From Sphaerochaeta sp. (GTDB taxonomy: Bacteria; Spirochaetota; Spirochaetia; Sphaerochaetales; Sphaerochaetaceae), in NCBI GenBank assembly GCA_018399495.1, contig JAGYOG010000003.1, positions 62,001 to 126,000 of the forward strand: a stretch of DNA of 64,000 nt, read 5' to 3'. The notes under the pieces are model-generated. The model saw only the letters and a program-made list of their open reading frames with translations. It did no database searches and was not told the origin of the DNA. Below, in pieces: positions 52,441 through 63,157 of the stretch; the first letter of the stretch is position 1, and every line of letters begins with the position of its first letter. The translations under genes and the position numbers were made by a program.

Positions 52441-52687
52441 TTACCTTTCCTGCTCTATTCTTTCAAAGATTAATTGTAGACCATCCATCAATGCAATTTT
52501 TTTTTATTGGTGTCGCCGAGTCCCCATATTTTATAGAAAGGTGGGGTGTTGATTTTTTGAAGCACAAGAAGACCTGAAGAAGGAGAACATTGTTAAAGAG
52601 GTACTTCACAACGCGATCAGCCACTGCGTCTTTAATTCCTGCAAGAGAGACTATGTCAGGAGCCCTGTACCTGAAAGAATTACACAA
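52441..52687 (-). pseudogene. Remnant of unknown coding sequence with a 4-bp duplication frameshift
   Basis: ORF 52463-52687 (...VADRVVKYLFNNVLLLQVFLCFKKSTPHLSIKYGDSATPIKKNCIDG) continues in another frame as ...GLQLIFERIEQER* after a duplicated GATG (minus ATTGATGGATGGTCTACAA). Confidence 0.5.
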
Positions 52688-53732
52688 GAGTTATGATTGA
52701 GTCTTCGTATTTCTCTGCTTCATAGGTTTTCTTATCAAACACACAGTAGGAATTCTTTCCAGCGCGTTTTGCCTGGTACATTGCAAAGTCGGCATACTCT
52801 ATGAGCTCAAACAGATTGGTAGTGTCTTTGTTGTAGCTAGCCATTCCTAGGCTGCAACAGATAGGAAGGTCCCCTGCATCGGTATGTATAGGATCTTTTG
52901 TCACGTGAGAGGTAAAGGTCTGATAAAACTGGTGTAGAAATGCTTCATCCACCGCTTCCATTCCATGGAGATAGAGACCGAACTCATCGCCTGCTATCCG
53001 CATTGCGATAGAGACTCCTTTGCAGAAAAGACTGGAAAGGCGAGTTGAGAATCCAACCAGGTATTGATCTCCTATGGCATGCCCATAGGTGTCATTGACT
53101 TGTTTGAAGTTGTCGATGTCGATGAAGACAAAGAGCCCCTGAGCCTCAGGATTCTCCTGGATGACGCCTTGCATTTCTGAATGGTACTGATAGCGGCTCA
53201 CCAAGCCGGTCAATGCGTCCTTAACGAGGTGATTATTCAGCTCAAGGTTCAGCTGTTCCAGTTTTCGGTTTGCTCTTTGGAGCTGACGCTGCGTGTTGAC
53301 CAAATCATTGTTGAGTTTCTGAATCTCTTCAAAATGGTTATAGACTTCTTCTGATGCATGCATGAGCTGTTCCCCGTGCAGGACAGCAAACTGCTTGATC
53401 ATACGGAAGATGACTTGGTTGTGTGCTTCTTGAATAGAGGGAGGAAGATGTACAAGATAATCCAATGCCAACACATACACGAATTTCTTTGCGCTGGCAA
53501 TGAAAAAGCAGAGTTGCTCTTGTTCCTCTATGATAGGTAAATGGGCACAAAACACTTCCTGCTCATGCTCCAGCGCATTGGAAAATATGGTATTGAAATG
53601 ATTCTTATCGTCCTGATGGAAAAGGGACTCTAAGGTAGTCTTGAAAGGCATGGCCAATGATATGGGTTTTGACCAGTAGGTCTCTTGGACTACCTTACTT
53701 GTATCAGTTCGGACAAAGAATGAGTGGTTCAT
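52680..53732 (-). CDS. Diguanylate cyclase (GGDEF; AGDEF variant) with N-terminal sensory region and coiled coil
   Basis: DALTGLVSRYQYHSEMQG, VFIDIDNFKQVNDTYGHAIGDQYL, RIAGDEFGLYL. Confidence 0.92.
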   Translation of the reverse strand: MNHSFFVRTDTSKVVQETYWSKPISLAMPFKTTLESLFHQDDKNHFNTIFSNALEHEQEVFCAHLPIIEEQEQLCFFIASAKKFVYVLALDYLVHLPPSIQEAHNQVIFRMIKQFAVLHGEQLMHASEEVYNHFEEIQKLNNDLVNTQRQLQRANRKLEQLNLELNNHLVKDALTGLVSRYQYHSEMQGVIQENPEAQGLFVFIDIDNFKQVNDTYGHAIGDQYLVGFSTRLSSLFCKGVSIAMRIAGDEFGLYLHGMEAVDEAFLHQFYQTFTSHVTKDPIHTDAGDLPICCSLGMASYNKDTTNLFELIEYADFAMYQAKRAGKNSYCVFDKKTYEAEKYEDSIITLV

Positions 53733-54799
53733 GATTTGGTAGCCACCTTATCTGCCCATAGTACCAGCTCTGTTGCAAGGTTGGTGTACACATCAATGGG
53801 CCATGTCTTATAGACACCCCCACTCGTTTTGAACGCTCTGCCCCCTACGGCAATAAGGAGAGAAGGGTAGGCATCCTTGAGAGCTTTTACTGCAAGGAAA
53901 CACGTCTGGAGATGTTGTGGCATGGTAACCGAAAGTGCGACAAGATTGGGCTTATGCTCTGCTACTGCGTTAACCAAGGAGGGTATGGGAACCGCTGCCC
54001 CAAGGTAGACGCTTTCCCAGCCATGATACTCAAAGAGGTCGGCTACCATGCGCCCCCCCATCTCATGCAGTTCACTGCCGATGCAACAGGTAAGGATTTT
54101 CTTATCAACCGGGTTCTGGTTGAAGATATATGGATAGAAGCGGGCGAGTATCATCTGAGTAGTAGAGGTCGCATAGTGTTCTTTGTCCACCGTAATTTTG
54201 TTTTGGTACCAGAGTTCTCCGACTTCTTGCATGCTCAGACGAATGATATTCTCATAGATTACTTCCAAGCTCAGCCCTGCTTTTCTAGCATCTTCAATAA
54301 TTTGGATTGCATTCTGGGTTTCACTCCTGAGCAGTGCATTAAGATATGCTCGTCGTATGGGTAGGTGATCTCCCTGGAGAAACTCTTCAGATACCTGATA
54401 GTTGTCCATTGCCTGTTCTGTTGCATAAATGGCAGCATCAAGGATAGTTCTCGCTGAAGTGCTCATCGCCTCTTCTTCAAAGAGCTTGTCACTGAAGGTT
54501 TTTAGAATCTCGTAGTGATGCACCATCTGGTCCTTGATGCGATCGCGGTCGAGATCTTTCATCAAGTTGCAGAGCAGTTCATACAACCAGACAGCATAAT
54601 TGGTGAAGAGCTCTTCATCTCCAATCTGTACTGCAGTGGTGAGGAAATCAAAATTGTAGAGTATGTCCTGGAACATGAGGCGTTTACGACGCTCATCCAT
54701 CTCTTTATCCAGTTTAAGGTCCTGCTCGAACTGCTGGTCGAATATCTTTTGTGCGATACTGATACGCCTTGGGTCAATGTCCGGAAGTAATAAACTCAT
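53729..54799 (-). CDS. Cobalamin (B12)-binding domain protein with CarH-type W-x9-EH cap motif; candidate B12-dependent sensor
   Basis: Cap motif WYQNKITVDKEH; B12-binding ELHEMGGRMVADLFEYHGWESVYLGA; ATGA overlap with downstream GGDEF gene; no MerR HTH seen. Confidence 0.87.
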   Translation of the reverse strand: MSLLLPDIDPRRISIAQKIFDQQFEQDLKLDKEMDERRKRLMFQDILYNFDFLTTAVQIGDEELFTNYAVWLYELLCNLMKDLDRDRIKDQMVHHYEILKTFSDKLFEEEAMSTSARTILDAAIYATEQAMDNYQVSEEFLQGDHLPIRRAYLNALLRSETQNAIQIIEDARKAGLSLEVIYENIIRLSMQEVGELWYQNKITVDKEHYATSTTQMILARFYPYIFNQNPVDKKILTCCIGSELHEMGGRMVADLFEYHGWESVYLGAAVPIPSLVNAVAEHKPNLVALSVTMPQHLQTCFLAVKALKDAYPSLLIAVGGRAFKTSGGVYKTWPIDVYTNLATELVLWADKVATKS

Positions 54800-54884
54800 A
54801 CAAGACCTCCATTTCACTGCTATCACATCTTATCTGTAGCATAACAGGATATAAAGGGTTTGTCATAAGAAAAGAAAATACAAA

Positions 54885-54973
54885 TTAAGAGCCCCGCCGA
54901 AGCGGGGAAAACAAGATGAAGAAAGGGACTGCGATGATTACGTAAGAAACACCCCCGCATGAGCGGGGAATAC
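54885..54973 (-). CRISPR. Two-repeat CRISPR mini-array 2 (same repeat family, one 33-nt spacer, one degenerate repeat)
   Basis: TTAAGAGCCCCGCCGAAGCGGGGAAAAC (54885-54912) and GAAACACCCCCGCATGAGCGGGGAATAC (54946-54973), period 61 bp; spacer AAGATGAAGAAAGGGACTGCGATGATTACGTAA. Confidence 0.78.
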
Positions 54974-55811: not shown

Positions 55812-57287
55812 ATGAATAAGAAAGCAGTAGTCATCGGTGGAGGCTTCGGTGGACTCAGCACAGCGGCACTCCTGGCCCGTGATGGATGGACCGTAACTTT
55901 GGTGGAGAAGAACACCCAGTTAGGAGGAAGAGCTCGGTACTGGAAGAAGGACGGATTCACGTTCGACATGGGGCCGTCCTGGTACCTCATGCCTGAAGTC
56001 TTTGAACACTACTTCTCTCTCTTTGATAAGAAACGGGAAGACTACTACGACCTTAGTCCTATCGACCCCTACTATAAGGTGTACTTTGAGGGTGGGGAAA
56101 CAGCCCACCTCACCCCACGATTCGAGGAGAACCAGAAACTCTTTGAGTCTTTTGAGAAGGGTGGGGGAAAAGCACTGAAAGCCTACATGGAGATGTCGAC
56201 CTATAAATATGATGTGGCCATGGAGGACTTCCTCTATCGTGATTACAAACATATCGGTCAATTCTTCAATAGACGGTTGATGACTGAGGGATTGCGGTTG
56301 GGAGTGCTTGGAAAGCTCGATGCCTTTGTTTCAAACTATGTTAAAGATCATCGGGCGAAACAGATTCTTGAATATGCCATGGTGTTCCTGGGCACCGACC
56401 CCGCCCAAGCACCTGCAATATACTCCATCATGACCCATGTGGATCTCAATCTAGGTGTATTCTTTCCTCAGAAAGGCATGGCTGGAGCTGCAGAAGGATT
56501 TGCCTCTCTCTGCAGGGAACTGGGTGTTGAGTTGGTAAGCGGTGCTGAAGTGCTGAAAATCCTGACCGAAGAGAATCAAGCAGTTGGGGTTGAGACCAAT
56601 AAAGGAACATTCCTGGCAGATGTGGTTGTCTCCTCTGCCGATTATCACCACAGTGATACCAATCTTCTTGACGGGAAGCATCGCACCTATTCTGACTCCT
56701 ACTGGGAGAAGCGGGTGGTTGCCCCCTCGATGTTCATCGCCTATTTGGGAATTGGCAGGGAACTGAAAGGGCTGGAACACCACAATCTCTACTTTGCAAA
56801 AGATTGGAATACGCATTTTGATGCAATTTTCAAGAACCCTGCCTGGCCTGAAGACCCCTGTTTCTACCTCAGTTGTATCAGCAAGACAGATTCATCTTCA
56901 GCACCTGAGGGGTGTGAGAACGTATTCTTATTGGTACCGGTAGCTCCAGGACTTGTTGATACCGAGGAACAGCGAAACGCCTACTTTGAGCATATAGCTG
57001 ACCATGTCCAGAAGGTGACAGGAGAGGATATCCGAAAGGACCTCTTGGTAAAGCGGTTGTATTCGCACCGGGACTTTATCTCTGACTACCATGCGTACAA
57101 GGGAACGGCACTAGGGCTGAGTCATACACTGATGCAGACTGCCGTCTTCCGTCCACGTCACCAGAATAAGAATGTAAAGAATCTCTATTACACTGGGCAG
57201 TACACGCACCCAGGGGTGGGGGTGCCCATGGTACTCATCGCCAGTGAATTGATAGCAAAGGAAATTAAGGAAACCTATGGTAGCTGA
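55812..57287 (+). CDS. crtI: Phytoene desaturase-family carotenoid dehydrogenase
   Basis: KKAVVIGGGFGGLSTAALLARDGWTVTLVEKNTQLGGRARYWKKDGFTFDMGPSWYLMPEVFE; C-terminal YYTGQYTHPGVGVPMVLIASEL. Confidence 0.95.
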   Translation: MNKKAVVIGGGFGGLSTAALLARDGWTVTLVEKNTQLGGRARYWKKDGFTFDMGPSWYLMPEVFEHYFSLFDKKREDYYDLSPIDPYYKVYFEGGETAHLTPRFEENQKLFESFEKGGGKALKAYMEMSTYKYDVAMEDFLYRDYKHIGQFFNRRLMTEGLRLGVLGKLDAFVSNYVKDHRAKQILEYAMVFLGTDPAQAPAIYSIMTHVDLNLGVFFPQKGMAGAAEGFASLCRELGVELVSGAEVLKILTEENQAVGVETNKGTFLADVVVSSADYHHSDTNLLDGKHRTYSDSYWEKRVVAPSMFIAYLGIGRELKGLEHHNLYFAKDWNTHFDAIFKNPAWPEDPCFYLSCISKTDSSSAPEGCENVFLLVPVAPGLVDTEEQRNAYFEHIADHVQKVTGEDIRKDLLVKRLYSHRDFISDYHAYKGTALGLSHTLMQTAVFRPRHQNKNVKNLYYTGQYTHPGVGVPMVLIASELIAKEIKETYGS

Positions 57288-58113
57288 CCGACATGAACAT
57301 ATATTTAGAAACGGAAGTAACACCTATTACTTCAGCTCCCGCTTTTTCCCTCCTCAGGTTCGGAGGGACGTCTATGCGCTCTATGGGTTTGTACGTGTAG
57401 CTGATAACCTGGTGGATGACCAGCTGGTAGAGCCTGACAGGTTTCATGAATTTCGCTCTCTTTATACGAAGGCATTTATCAGTGGCGGCCCAAGTGGTGA
57501 TGACATAATTGACGCTTTTCTTGAGTTGCAGAAACGGAAAAACTTTGACCCAGCATGGACTGATGCCTTCCTTGATTCCATGGAACACGACCTGAGTGAA
57601 TCAACTTGTGAGACACTTGAGGAGGTACTGACCTATATCTATGGTTCAGCAGAGGTCATTGGCCTATTCATGGCACGGATCATGGATTTGAATGAAGCTT
57701 CATTTCCCTATGCAGCCATGCTTGGTCGTGCGATGCAATATATAAACTTCATCCGTGATATTGCGGAGGATAATGGACTGGGAAGACGTTACCTGCCTTT
57801 ATTGGATACCCCACTAGCGTCGCTGAGGGAGACTGAAGCCAAGAAAAATCCTGAGGCTTTCTCCGTCTTTATCAGAAGGGAGATTGTGCGATATCAAGAG
57901 TGGCAGAAGGAAGCAGAGAAGGGATATTCCTATATTCCACGTCGTTATAGGATTCCTATCATGACCGCCGCCGACATGTACTGCTGGACAGCAAACCGGA
58001 TTGCCAAGGACCCGTTTATTGTCTTCGAGAGACAAGTAAAGCCTCCGGCTTCCAGAATTCTACGAAAGGGATTTGCCCATACCCTAGGAGTAGCCCTACC
58101 ATGTTCAATCTAA
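57277..58113 (+). CDS. crtB: Phytoene/squalene synthase
   Basis: SSRFFPPQVRRDVYALYGFVRVADNLVDDQ, GRAMQYINFIRDIAEDNGLGRRYLPL. Confidence 0.94.
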   Translation: MVADRHEHIFRNGSNTYYFSSRFFPPQVRRDVYALYGFVRVADNLVDDQLVEPDRFHEFRSLYTKAFISGGPSGDDIIDAFLELQKRKNFDPAWTDAFLDSMEHDLSESTCETLEEVLTYIYGSAEVIGLFMARIMDLNEASFPYAAMLGRAMQYINFIRDIAEDNGLGRRYLPLLDTPLASLRETEAKKNPEAFSVFIRREIVRYQEWQKEAEKGYSYIPRRYRIPIMTAADMYCWTANRIAKDPFIVFERQVKPPASRILRKGFAHTLGVALPCSI

Positions 58114-58745
58114 CAAAAGAAGAACGTCTGATCATCTATCTCCTGGTTCCCTTCTATTTCGTAGGCACTATTGCACACAGCATCGATGTCACGCTTCCGC
58201 TCATGTTGCTCTTGACTCCGTATTCAATCCTGTTAACCTCGGTCATTGGTTTCTTTTTTGATGTACGGGAGAAGAACCATTGTCTGTTACTGTGGGCCTT
58301 GGTTACCTTCCTCATCACATTGTTCCTTGAGATTGTGGGGGTGGCAACTTCTCTTATATTTGGTGCCTATACCTATGGGGACACGCTTGGCTTGAAGCTG
58401 CTGGAAGTTCCTCTGCTTATCGGGATAAACTGGACCATCATCATCCTGGGAATTGCAGATGTCGTGAGACAGAAAGTCTCCAACAATGCTTTTGCTGCTC
58501 TGATTACTGCTTCCCTGACCGTCTTGTTTGATTACGTCATGGAACCGGTAGCCATTGCATTCGACTACTGGAATTGGACACAGGGGCCGATTCCCCTGCA
58601 GAACTATATTGCTTGGTTTGTGATAGCATTTCTCTTCTCCTATCTGTTTTACAGGAATAGCTTGCACAGTACGAGCAAGATACCTACAATCATAGTTGTG
58701 ATACAGTTCCTGTTTTTTCTTTTCCTACGGGTATTTACAATATGA
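58101..58745 (+). CDS. cruF: Carotenoid biosynthesis membrane protein, CruF (DUF422)-like hydratase
   Basis: Multi-TM; EIVGVATSLIFGAYTYGDTLGLKLLEVPLLIGINW, LFDYVMEPVAIAFDYWNW; in crtI-crtB operon. Confidence 0.87.
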   Translation: MFNLTKEERLIIYLLVPFYFVGTIAHSIDVTLPLMLLLTPYSILLTSVIGFFFDVREKNHCLLLWALVTFLITLFLEIVGVATSLIFGAYTYGDTLGLKLLEVPLLIGINWTIIILGIADVVRQKVSNNAFAALITASLTVLFDYVMEPVAIAFDYWNWTQGPIPLQNYIAWFVIAFLFSYLFYRNSLHSTSKIPTIIVVIQFLFFLFLRVFTI

Positions 58746-59593
58746 AAATAAAACTTGTGAGTGTTATTGTCCTTGTATTTAGTCTGGCTTCCCTGTTTGC
58801 AGAGCCGCAGCAGGAGTCTTATTATGCACCCAGTGTTAGCTACTGGGCTGATGCTCAAGGCTCTGTTCTGGTCTCTGAACATACTGTTCCTCTTCGCGCT
58901 GATCCAAAGCTAATGGTCTTGCTCTACCATAATGTAGTGTTTGGCCGTACCGGAAATGCCTACAACCGGGATCTGTACAATTTTGAAAATGACTTATCGT
59001 TTGTAAAAAGAAATTTTACCATAACTAATTTCAAGCAGTTGCTCACCAATTCGGGTGAAACCAAGACTGATCAAGCCATCATTACCTTTGATGACGGAGA
59101 CCTCTCCTTATATGCAATCGTATTTCCTCTGTTCAAGGCCTATGAAATGGAAGCAACTATCTTTCTGGTTCCTTCATTCATTGGTGAGGTGGGGTATATG
59201 AGCTGGGACCAAGTCAGGGAGATGAGTAATTACCGAACAGGGGATGGTCGTAAGCTGTTTTATTTTGAATCGCATTCACAGACCCATCAAATGATGGGCG
59301 AGCTGAGTAAGGAAGAGATCATTCGGGAACTTCAGCAATCGAAACAGATTATTGAAGAGGAAGTAGGAGAGCCGGTTACCATCTTGGCGCTCCCCTTCGG
59401 CAGCGGAGCGGGAGATGAACGTATTATCAGTGCAGCCTATGATCTTGGGTACCAGGCTATCAGGACCTCAAAGTCTGAAGCCCGTCTCCTTTCCAAGGTA
59501 AATCCTTGGATGATCGGGGCCATGAATGTTGAGAACTACAGCAGTGACGTGTTGGTACAGAACGTACTCTCATTAATGGGAAAACGGAAATGA
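58742..59593 (+). CDS. Polysaccharide deacetylase (NodB homology) with signal peptide
   Basis: LMVLLYHNVVFG, AIITFDDGDLSLYAIVFPLF, FESHSQTHQMMGELSKEEI. Confidence 0.88.
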   Translation: MKIKLVSVIVLVFSLASLFAEPQQESYYAPSVSYWADAQGSVLVSEHTVPLRADPKLMVLLYHNVVFGRTGNAYNRDLYNFENDLSFVKRNFTITNFKQLLTNSGETKTDQAIITFDDGDLSLYAIVFPLFKAYEMEATIFLVPSFIGEVGYMSWDQVREMSNYRTGDGRKLFYFESHSQTHQMMGELSKEEIIRELQQSKQIIEEEVGEPVTILALPFGSGAGDERIISAAYDLGYQAIRTSKSEARLLSKVNPWMIGAMNVENYSSDVLVQNVLSLMGKRK

Positions 59594-60339
59594 AAAAACA
59601 ACTATCTGTCCTCTTGCTAAGTTTTCTCTTCGTCTCTTGTGCACTCTTTGCTGAGGAAACCACCTTGATAAAGGTACGACCTAGAGAGCTTGCATTCGGG
59701 GGGTTGCATTGGAGAACCAAGAGTAGTATCACTCCAACCAGTCCTGGGCCCAACTATTTCAGTGCTGACCCTTCCGCTGTCTGGGTTGATGATTGGGGCC
59801 TGCACCTTACGCTCAAGCAACATGATGAGAAATGGTGGGCTACCGAAATCTTTACCCGGGAACGGGTAGGGTATGGAACCTATACCTTCACCGTTGAAAC
59901 AGACGCTGCATCGTATGACCCACATATTGTTGCAGGATTTTTCACTTGGGACACAGCACCGGAGGAGTACAACAGGGAGATTGACATTGAGTTTGCTGCT
60001 TGGGGGGCGCAGGATGGTACAAAATTCCAGTATGTTGTGCAGCCCTATACGGATCCTGGGAGAATTGAGGTATTTGACCCAGAGCTGAATGGAAATCTCA
60101 CTACACATCGTATTATCTGGACGCCACAGGATGTCTCTTTTGCTTCCTATCATGGGGCGGTTGATCCCGATGATCCAGAAAGTGAACGTATGCTTATCAA
60201 CAGATGGAGCTATCCAGAGAGTCCAAGTGAAGGCAAGGTGCGTTTCAGAGTCAACCTTTGGTTGTATCAGGGAAAAGATCCTGTTTCACCTGTTCATCTG
60301 GTTATTACTTCTTTTTTGTTTGAGAAGTGGAAGCCTTGA
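59590..60339 (+). CDS. Glycoside hydrolase family 16-like secreted protein
   Basis: Signal peptide; EIDIEF (ExDxE) catalytic motif in NREIDIEFAAWG; YGTYTFTVETDAASYDPHIVAGFFTW. Confidence 0.78.
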   Translation: MKKQLSVLLLSFLFVSCALFAEETTLIKVRPRELAFGGLHWRTKSSITPTSPGPNYFSADPSAVWVDDWGLHLTLKQHDEKWWATEIFTRERVGYGTYTFTVETDAASYDPHIVAGFFTWDTAPEEYNREIDIEFAAWGAQDGTKFQYVVQPYTDPGRIEVFDPELNGNLTTHRIIWTPQDVSFASYHGAVDPDDPESERMLINRWSYPESPSEGKVRFRVNLWLYQGKDPVSPVHLVITSFLFEKWKP

Positions 60340-63157
60340 AACCCACCCTAACCTGGGCTCCCCACCCACGATTCTTCCGCATGGCACTGAAATAGGCCGA
60401 AACACGAAGCAAGCTGATTACCTGCCGTACCCCAAAATTCTCGATAATGGCCATTGCAAGCAGTCTGGAGATATCTCTCCAGGAATAGAGTGGCTTATCG
60501 TACTCACTGATGAATACGGCTGAGAGCGAGACAAGGATTCCCAAACCGATGGTTGCAGTGAAAAGCAACAGGGCTATTGGAAGGTTGAGCAATCCAAGGA
60601 AGGCTCCAATTATCACAAACAGCAACCCCTGGGCTTCAATGAAAGGTCCAAGCAATTCGAATACAAAATAGTAAAGCATCCCAACCATCCCCAACCTTCC
60701 ATACCGGGGATTTGCTATCATGGAACTGTGGAAGAGCATGATGTCAATCAAGCCTCGATGCCAACGGTTTCTCTGGCGGCGAAGCACCTTCCACTTTTCA
60801 GGGACCTCAGTCCAGCAGTTTGCATTGCATGCATACTGGACGCGGTATGGCTTATGCTTCTCACGCATGTACCTGGAGAGACGGACCACCAATTCCATAT
60901 CTTCTCCCACCGTGTCCTTATGAAATTTACCGCTCTTGGTAAGGTATCCCCCTGTGGCGATGGTTCTTTCCCGATGAAAGATCCCGAAAGCTCCGCTAAT
61001 GATGAGCAATACATTCATACTCGCCCAACCTACCCGGCCGGTCATGAAGGAACGGATATATTCAAGGCTTTGTAATCTGGCCAAGAAGTTATCTGGGAGT
61101 TGGACGTTGTCCAGTGATCCCAACTCAACCGTACATCCATTGACCGGGCAGATATTCCCTCCTGTAGCTATGCTCTCAATCGGGGTGTCCAGCATTACTG
61201 AGACCGCCTTCAGGAGGGCATCGGGCTCAAGAAGTGAGTCTGCATCGATGCCACAGAAGAATTCCTTGGTTGAGACATTCAAGCCAAGGTTCAAGCTATC
61301 AGCCTTACCGCCATTCACCTTGTCCACCACAATAAGGTTGGGAATGTTCTTGTTCGCGTAGATTCCGCGCAGAGGACGGGTTGGAAGTCTCCCCCAGACC
61401 ATTTTGTCCTGTTTTTCCAGGTTGTAGTATTCGATCATGGTCTTGAGTGTTTCATCCTTTGAGCCATCGTTGACAACAATCAACTCATAATCAGGATACT
61501 GTTGGTTCAATAAACTGTTGGTACTCTCAATAATGTTGCTTGCCTCATTATAGGCTGGAGCAATGATGGATATTGAAGGGAGTAACCCTCTGGTAAAGAG
61601 CATTTGATTATCTTTTGCTCTCCAGAGCCGGTTTTGAATGTTGGCAGCGCGGAAAGAGACTGCCATTACTACGAGATAAATAATGTTGATTGTAACCGAG
61701 TAATACACTAGTAGGTAGTTGAACCGTACCACGTATAAGTTAAGTATCTCGCGGGCAGTGAGATTAACTAAGTTTGGGAGCTCTGTAATAAGGATGAGCA
61801 AAGGGAAGCTCAAGAGCGTTACTACCAACAGGAGAATGAGCATCAGCCGCTGGGGTGCTTCTTGGTGGGGGGCAGCCACAGGTCCTCTTGTCCTGAGAGG
61901 TTTCAACTGGATTCTCTGAAGGATATCCGCATCAAGATACGTAAGAAGCAACACCCTAAACTTTTTTTGTTTTTTAGCATGCTGTTTGATAAGTGCCAGG
62001 ATTGCCTCCTGTTTCTCATTATCTTTGGTGGTATTGAGGTACTGTATCAATCCGCTAATATGAAGTTGGTCGACCAAGGTGGAAATCAAATCGGAGAGCT
62101 GGGGTGTCAAAGGTCCCTCATTTGATTCCAATATATAGGAGAGTCGGTTATCAAGTACTTTCGCAATTATCTTTTTTTGCTGTTGAGACGTATGTTTAAT
62201 AAATCTTGTGAGCAACAGGGAAATGAGTGAGGGGTCACGTTCGCTCATCTCTGTGAGACCTTGAACCAGGTAATCATGTAATTTCGTATGGCTTGAATAC
62301 GCAAGCATCGCATGGATCAGTCGTTTATCCTGAAGATTGGCGTACGCCTTGATAACAAAGGGAAGAGTATCCTGATAATGGGGTTTCTGGAATTCAGAAA
62401 CGAGCAAGCGTTTTGGGAAATGCCTGCAGAGCGCTTTAAGTGCAGTAGTTCTGACCTTTTTGTTGGGGGTTTGTGCTTGTTCGACCAGATATTCCTTGAG
62501 TGATTCAGTCGAATAGAGCAGGGCGTATTCACAAATGAGGAGGCGCATCGAAGGACTTTTTCGGTCCAATCGTCTTAGAAGATAGGGCAGTAGCTGGCTT
62601 TGGTAATTCAAGAGAAGTGAACGATAGCGACCAGCCATCCAAGGAGTGGAGTAATGTAGTTTCCTGAGCATAATGGATAGTGCTTTTTTCTCTCCTATGC
62701 GAGCCAGTGCTTGGAACAGATAGAGGATGACCACTGGGTTTGTTTCTCTCTTGAGCGCAACAAGCATGGTTTCTCGGATATAGGGGTCCATAGCTAAGTT
62801 TTTGAGTTTTGCAGCGGCTTCAATTCTGCCTAGTACGGAGAACCCTTTGAGGTGTTTACAAATCTTTCGAACATAGGAAGAGGAGGTGAAGTGATTATAA
62901 AACTGCTTTTCTGTTATTTCATCAAAATACAGTGTTGGAGAAAGTTTGTTAAAAAGCCGGAGAAGATCTTTTGCCCTGAATGTATCCAAATCGAGCGTCT
63001 CGTTTTCCAGTTGCTCAAGCAATTGATCTTCGATGGCGTGGTCTTTCCGCTTCTGTATTGCTCGTGCCAAACGGACCACTAAAGTAGCAAGCAAGAGCAC
63101 CAAATCTATGGAGAGGACTGCAATTGTCAATATTATAGCAAGTGAATTAGACAACAC
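60305..63157 (-). CDS. Processive family 2 glycosyltransferase with N-terminal HEAT-like repeats
   Basis: GT2: SIIAPAYNEASNIIESTNSLLNQQYPDYELIVVNDGSKD, FCGIDADSLLEPDAL, QRNRW; TM segments; about 400 aa N-terminal helical repeats. Confidence 0.9.
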   Translation of the reverse strand: MLSNSLAIILTIAVLSIDLVLLLATLVVRLARAIQKRKDHAIEDQLLEQLENETLDLDTFRAKDLLRLFNKLSPTLYFDEITEKQFYNHFTSSSYVRKICKHLKGFSVLGRIEAAAKLKNLAMDPYIRETMLVALKRETNPVVILYLFQALARIGEKKALSIMLRKLHYSTPWMAGRYRSLLLNYQSQLLPYLLRRLDRKSPSMRLLICEYALLYSTESLKEYLVEQAQTPNKKVRTTALKALCRHFPKRLLVSEFQKPHYQDTLPFVIKAYANLQDKRLIHAMLAYSSHTKLHDYLVQGLTEMSERDPSLISLLLTRFIKHTSQQQKKIIAKVLDNRLSYILESNEGPLTPQLSDLISTLVDQLHISGLIQYLNTTKDNEKQEAILALIKQHAKKQKKFRVLLLTYLDADILQRIQLKPLRTRGPVAAPHQEAPQRLMLILLLVVTLLSFPLLILITELPNLVNLTAREILNLYVVRFNYLLVYYSVTINIIYLVVMAVSFRAANIQNRLWRAKDNQMLFTRGLLPSISIIAPAYNEASNIIESTNSLLNQQYPDYELIVVNDGSKDETLKTMIEYYNLEKQDKMVWGRLPTRPLRGIYANKNIPNLIVVDKVNGGKADSLNLGLNVSTKEFFCGIDADSLLEPDALLKAVSVMLDTPIESIATGGNICPVNGCTVELGSLDNVQLPDNFLARLQSLEYIRSFMTGRVGWASMNVLLIISGAFGIFHRERTIATGGYLTKSGKFHKDTVGEDMELVVRLSRYMREKHKPYRVQYACNANCWTEVPEKWKVLRRQRNRWHRGLIDIMLFHSSMIANPRYGRLGMVGMLYYFVFELLGPFIEAQGLLFVIIGAFLGLLNLPIALLLFTATIGLGILVSLSAVFISEYDKPLYSWRDISRLLAMAIIENFGVRQVISLLRVSAYFSAMRKNRGWGAQVRVGFKASTSQTKKK

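Follow-up and report, generated by a model that had tools for sequence, protein, structure and literature searches.

What does a B12-binding protein with the cap motif of the CarH photoreceptors do when its gene overlaps that of a diguanylate cyclase (DGC)? This question is raised by two genes, P0001 and P0002, in the window, the 64,000-nucleotide stretch of Sphaerochaeta sp. DNA analysed here (Table 1). A sequence-only reading had placed both genes on the minus strand and had described a sensor stop that overlaps the cyclase start in an ATGA; the gene positions, the strand and the overlap (53732-53729) are as it described them. Upstream lie a pair of terminator-like hairpins and a match that resembles a promoter, and P0001 and P0002 are thus probably a separate transcription unit. 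Downstream of P0002, the next gene encodes an aldo/keto reductase on the opposite strand, with no co-directional gene before it, and a search of the locus for a riboswitch found none.

Table 1. Features of the sensor-cyclase pair and its surroundings, in window coordinates
Feature	Position	Strand	Basis
Photocobilin-type (photoglobin-B12) sensor gene, 356 aa, P0001	53729..54799	-	Pfam, structure and profile searches, model
Photoglobin (bilin-type globin), P0001 N-terminal residues ~8-135	54395..54778	-	profile matches, invariant residues, helical model
D45 codon	54667-54665	-	aligned to SasPcob Asp270
W71 codon	54589-54587	-	aligned to SasPcob Trp296
Four-helix B12-binding cap, P0001 residues 149-220	54140..54355	-	Pfam PF02607 (B12-binding_2), 1e-12
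W-x9-EH motif, residues 197-208, WYQNKITVDKEH	54176..54211	-	sequence
B12-binding Rossmann domain, residues 234-324, ELHEMG and GAAVP	53828..54100	-	Pfam PF02310, 2e-15
Predicted lower ligand H245 (in ELHEMG)	54067-54065	-	sequence
DGC partner gene, 350 aa, P0002	52680..53732	-	sequence, Pfam, model, fold search
ATGA overlap, P0001 stop and P0002 start	53729..53732	-	sequence; overlaps likewise in relatives L049-L052
PAS-like N-terminal domain of P0002 (tentative), residues 1-95	53448..53732	-	strand-helix order in model; no Pfam match
Long helix, probable coiled coil, P0002 residues 98-170, with LNNDLVN	53223..53441	-	model; motif shared with partners
GGDEF domain of P0002	52752..53219	-	PF00990 2e-30, fold search, alignment
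AGDEF active site of P0002	52994-52980	-	sequence, alignment
Candidate extended -10 promoter of the pair	54838..54866	-	consensus match only; shuffles give as many
Two terminator-like hairpins 5' of the pair	54892..54969	-	sequence
crtI, crtB (phytoene synthase), carotenoid biosynthesis protein (context)	55812..58745	+	Pfam
Polysaccharide deacetylase, 249-aa protein without Pfam match, HEAT-repeat/family 2 glycosyltransferase, beside the carotenoid genes	58742-63157

Domain architecture of the sensor

Sequence and Pfam agree that P0001 combines an exact W-x9-EH motif (W197-YQNKITVDK-E207-H208) with a B12-binding domain, as had been claimed. Among 62 homologous open frames, GxxW-x9-EH is present in all 43 of the non-DxH frames in which the cap is covered and in none of the 17 D-type (DxH) frames, 15 of which read DxHDIG, the site of the methyltransferase type. 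By this distribution, the motif in P0001 is evidently not a chance occurrence. W197, E207, H208 and H245 are invariant in an alignment of ten members. Searched against solved structures, P0001 matched SasPcob (1.6e-20), the photoreceptor CtMerR (5e-13) and AbDPcob (5e-11) ahead of MetH and CarH, and CtMerR and CarH domains ranked first in a fold search with its structure model, the Rossmann part of which has low confidence. Structure matches, fold search and motif thus settle a choice that the sequence-only reading had posed between a CarH-type domain and a MetH or corrinoid shuttle: the B12 half groups first with CarH and photocobilin domains. CarH is also the top NCBIfam model for P0001, yet the match falls under its cut-off.

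The published SignatureFinder signature of light-responsive B12 domains comprises GxxW, EH, GxxH and GxxxP (PMC11796333). P0001 has GELW, EH and GAAVP, and one of the four elements differs, with SELH in place of the photoreceptor GxxH; SELH is found in all Sphaerochaetaceae members, and NEYH in one further genome (G051). The residue after the cap Trp is also variable. In CarH it is a His (H132) that serves as second ligand in the bis-His light state, while SasPcob has Gln and AbDPcob Tyr (PMC11796333); it is Tyr in the P0001 clade and His in deeper relatives. This Tyr/His switch occurs naturally within Sphaerochaeta. The only other B12 match in the window's own genome is one long methionine-synthase-like frame, and the same search found no second B12 photosensor there.

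The part of P0001 that precedes the B12 cap has no Pfam match. It had been described as about 190 N-terminal residues of another type, most of which can now be assigned: residues ~8-135 are, by profile comparison, a photoglobin, that is, a phycobiliprotein-related bilin-binding globin. We built a profile from ten N-terminal regions that had been picked through homology of the B12 domain and not of the globin, and it matched AbDPcob (8j2y, 8.4e-8), allophycocyanin (6e-5), SasPcob (8j2w, 1.2e-3) and dozens of further phycobiliproteins. Matches of this profile to 7rdr were rejected as weak matches added up along a repeat protein. In the search of solved structures, residues 33-82 of P0001 gave a second, weak match to the photocobilin bilin domain, and the structure model of the N-terminal domain is all-helical, with pLDDT mostly 73-94. 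Moreover, D45, Y68 and W71 are invariant across an alignment of ten diverse globin-first relatives. In an ungapped alignment, D45 and W71 correspond to SasPcob Asp270 and Trp296, given that the chain index and the published numbering (PMC10979010) differ by 6, which we checked on His108 and His137. Both of these SasPcob residues contact the bilin (PMC10979010), while the His137 contact is a Ser in P0001. The Cys position of the phycobiliprotein attachment motif (CxRD) is Met42 in P0001, and therefore any bilin is expected to be bound non-covalently, as in SasPcob.

Photoglobins, or BBAG-2 globins, that occur with B12-binding proteins are reportedly covered in a 2022 photoglobin survey by Schneider. 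BBAG-2 globins resemble P0001 in coupling a globin of the phycobiliprotein clade to a B12 domain, and their CxQD motif corresponds to MFQD in P0001 (PMC10151467). The N-terminal domain is likewise homologous to allophycocyanin, with which it shares the CxRD Asp; P0001 lacks the attachment Cys and is not a light-harvesting protein. In the CarH/LitR proteins (for example, Thermus thermophilus CarH), as in P0001, the B12 part consists of a cap and a Rossmann domain and carries W-x9-EH, and carotenoid genes are found nearby. However, P0001 has an extra photoglobin, and the earlier observation that no MerR helix-turn-helix is visible holds in Pfam, so we do not class P0001 as a CarH. Since its N-terminal domain is a bilin-type globin, photocobilins and not CarH are the right comparison.

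The solved photocobilins are SasPcob from Saccharothrix syringae (8J2W/8J2X) and AbDPcob from an Acidimicrobiaceae member (8J2Y) (PMC10979010). Like P0001, photocobilins combine a CarH-like B12 domain with a bilin-type globin in a single chain and have the W-x9-EH and E/DxH motifs and, in SasPcob, the bilin-contacting Asp and Trp. They are also tied to diguanylate cyclases, and the standalone form acts on a cyclase in trans. P0001 differs in that its globin precedes the B12 domain, an order reported for one known group, in its separate, overlapping cyclase gene, which is fused in AbDPcob, in its SxxH in place of GxxH, and in its host, an anaerobe without a canonical heme oxygenase. P0001 is thus, as judged from its sequence, a globin-first, photocobilin-type B12/bilin photosensor with a separate DGC. 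Globin-first photocobilins and cyclase coupling have both been reported already, and the P0001-P0002 pair belongs among them.

Two further kinds of sensor came to light among the relatives. Cro/C1-type (HTH_3) domains are fused to W-x9-EH B12 domains at L044:6642-7586, L045:6970-7896, L046:6878-7786 and L102:5478-6461, and these proteins appear to be CarH-like regulators with a head other than MerR. Additionally, a second type of N-terminal domain (NHxNHA ... PWVYRAYHxxGFxYDYF; L090:5369-5869, L043, L092, L098, L100, L101) is coupled with B12 photosensor domains as well as with kinases or cyclases. In G051, L090, L092, L098, L100 and L101, this type has no PDB match and gives a weak collinear profile match to the photoglobin (E 4e-4, probability 34%), and any relation between the two is at most tentative.

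The partner cyclase and the conservation of the pair

The neighbouring gene had been read as encoding a GGDEF protein. The domain was correctly named, while its active-site motif proved to be AGDEF, with the first Gly replaced by Ala in all six aligned members. The remaining catalytic residues are retained, and the inhibitory RxxD I-site is absent from the alignment of P0002. The N-terminal domain may be PAS-like by its modelled fold; residues 1-95 have no Pfam match, and the call is therefore tentative. The modelled helix that follows is 73 residues long. A motif of this helix, LNNELVNxxREL, precedes the catalytic part in the P0002 coiled coil and at L085, L086, L087, L089, L091, L095 and L096, and it is possibly a common docking or signalling helix of partner cyclases and kinases. 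We rejected the idea of a common N-terminal domain in these partners: the coiled-coil motif alone aligns, and profile comparison of the preceding domains was unsupportive.

How tightly is this cyclase coupled to the sensor? A near full-length sensor homologue is present in 12 of the 60 genomes in our near-relative set (the window's own included), all Sphaerochaetaceae, and in all 12 the cyclase adjoins the sensor on the same strand. The pair is also present, with overlapping frames, at two loci of 63% identity in other Spirochaetia assemblies, and across these loci and the 12 genomes the frames mostly overlap. Conservation in relatives, on which the sequence-only reading had made its proposal depend, is therefore borne out by all examined carriers in Sphaerochaetaceae and their close kin. 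On the scale of the phylum, the globin-first protein adjoins a GGDEF gene in five genomes (G190, G368, G389, G120, G319) and a histidine kinase in three (G390, G376, G131). Since the partner varies with the genome, the output is exchangeable, as expected for a sensor module. Frames of 694 aa in G120 and G319 were rejected as fusions, being over-long open frames with the cyclase in another frame. Other cyclase partners for the sensor are conceivable as well, because the source genome has 28 GGDEF matches.

Carotenoid genes had been noted about 1 kb from the sensor. Indeed, crtI starts 1.0 kb away at 55812, with a DUF386 gene in between, and Pfam backs crtI, phytoene synthase and the carotenoid-synthesis protein. 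Counting matches above the family cut-off in 26 genus genomes, we found crtI in 10 of the 11 that bear the sensor and in 3 of the 15 that do not (Fisher p 0.001, uncorrected for shared ancestry or incomplete assemblies), and in 10 of the 11 carriers it lies 1-16 kb from the sensor. Beyond the genus, no crt genes were found in the sensor flanks. This is a genus-level association and not evidence of control. The suggested links to carotenoid and exopolysaccharide expression are weaker than was claimed. For exopolysaccharide there is only the nearness of the polysaccharide deacetylase and glycosyltransferase genes, and no PilZ receptor was found in 11 genomes.

Proposed light control and competing explanations

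The proposal of a B12 photosensor with c-di-GMP output in place of direct DNA binding draws support, by inference, from its closest solved relatives, the photocobilins. Light alters diguanylate cyclase activity through two of them, activating the cyclase both when fused and in trans, and separate photocobilin domains also alter a cyclase in trans (PMC10979010). In the fused AbDPcob, AdoCbl inhibits the cyclase in the dark and light activates it more than tenfold (PMC10979010). For this reason, we regard a light-controlled c-di-GMP switch as the best explanation of P0001-P0002, and a likely one. In the dark, AdoCbl would be held base-off via H245, with its adenosyl group beneath W197 and, across the dimer, engaged via E207-H208. 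The Co-C bond would then be cleaved by light: green light would act directly, and red light as well if a bilin sits in the globin. The cap and dimer interface would rearrange and so alter how the sensor touches the separate cyclase, for which the PAS-like domain and the long coiled coil of P0002 are the probable sites, and the c-di-GMP output would change. We infer AdoCbl and bilin binding and the light response itself by analogy, and the wavelengths and the direction, activation and not inhibition in light, would likewise follow the photocobilins.

The supply of the two cofactors bears on this mechanism. A CobA-type B12 adenosyltransferase is encoded in 12 of 12 genomes, and AdoCbl is thus plausibly made from corrinoids; the PduO type was found in 0 of 11. 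BBAG-2 globin genes have bilin reductases and heme oxygenases in their cluster or elsewhere in the genome (PMC10151467), and no heme oxygenase was found here. None of the 26 genus genomes has the canonical family (PF01126), and the bilin pocket may therefore be unoccupied or contain another ligand. Of 32 spirochaetes that carry related B12 photosensor genes, in some cases lacking the globin, 30 are without this family too. HutW-type anaerobic heme breakdown was set aside, with sub-threshold matches only, of the same kind in all control genomes. In the two spirochaetes that bear PF01126, from one genus, the oxygenase gene immediately precedes that of a standalone W-x9-EH B12 protein and is fused to ~220 residues without a Pfam match (L097:1908-3218, L099:4570-5853), a part that may be a globin.

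The strongest competitor is a sensor of B12 status or redox, in which AdoCbl occupancy and not light sets the cyclase and the photoglobin is a bilin-free structural relic. The anaerobic hosts without a canonical heme oxygenase and the SxxH sequence would suit such a sensor, as would AbDPcob, whose cyclase is already less active with AdoCbl bound than in the apo form and which binds bilin poorly (PMC10979010). However, the cap W, E and H that hold the photolabile adenosyl group are invariant, and so too are the Asp and Trp that contact the bilin, residues whose loss would be expected in a relic, and carotenoid genes accompany 10 of the 11 genus carriers. We therefore consider this alternative unlikely. 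Another possibility, which we regard as quite improbable, keeps the light sensor but takes P0002 for an AGDEF protein with weak catalysis or of the receptor type, the output then following another route such as protein contact or carotenoid gene control. While AGDEF is non-canonical, histidine kinases partner related sensors in some genomes and carotenoid genes are nearby in the genus, all other catalytic positions are retained, an AGDEF enzyme of Vibrio cholerae produces c-di-GMP (PMC3974145), and neither protein has a DNA-binding domain in Pfam. Moreover, without an I-site P0002 is not an I-site receptor. Finally, a corrinoid methyltransferase shuttle (MtaC/MetH type) beside the cyclase by chance is strongly disfavoured. 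Both Pfam B12 domains are common to such proteins, but P0001 lacks their DxHDIG site and has W-x9-EH, which occurs in 43 of 43 covered non-DxH relatives and in 0 of the 17 DxH-type, mostly methyltransferase-like frames. Its nearest structures are photocobilins and CarH-type domains, it has an additional globin, and no methyltransferase gene adjoins it.

Meaning for photocobilins and spirochaetes

What would a light-controlled c-di-GMP switch mean for these organisms? In its fullest form, P0001 would be a two-colour B12/bilin photosensor that obtains a linear tetrapyrrole without canonical heme oxygenase, by uptake or by a novel oxygen-free route, and the cognate cyclase, encoded separately, would be the partner on which it naturally acts in trans; we hold this complete picture to be doubtful. 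A conserved bilin pocket in genomes without that enzyme nevertheless poses a pointed question about the ligand of the pocket. The pair would also supply what the founding paper left open (PMC10979010), a likely natural partner for a photocobilin of the standalone type. In the literature searched, we found no photoreceptor paper on anaerobic, carotenoid-bearing spirochaetes, and it is in these bacteria that our analysis would place light-controlled c-di-GMP signalling.
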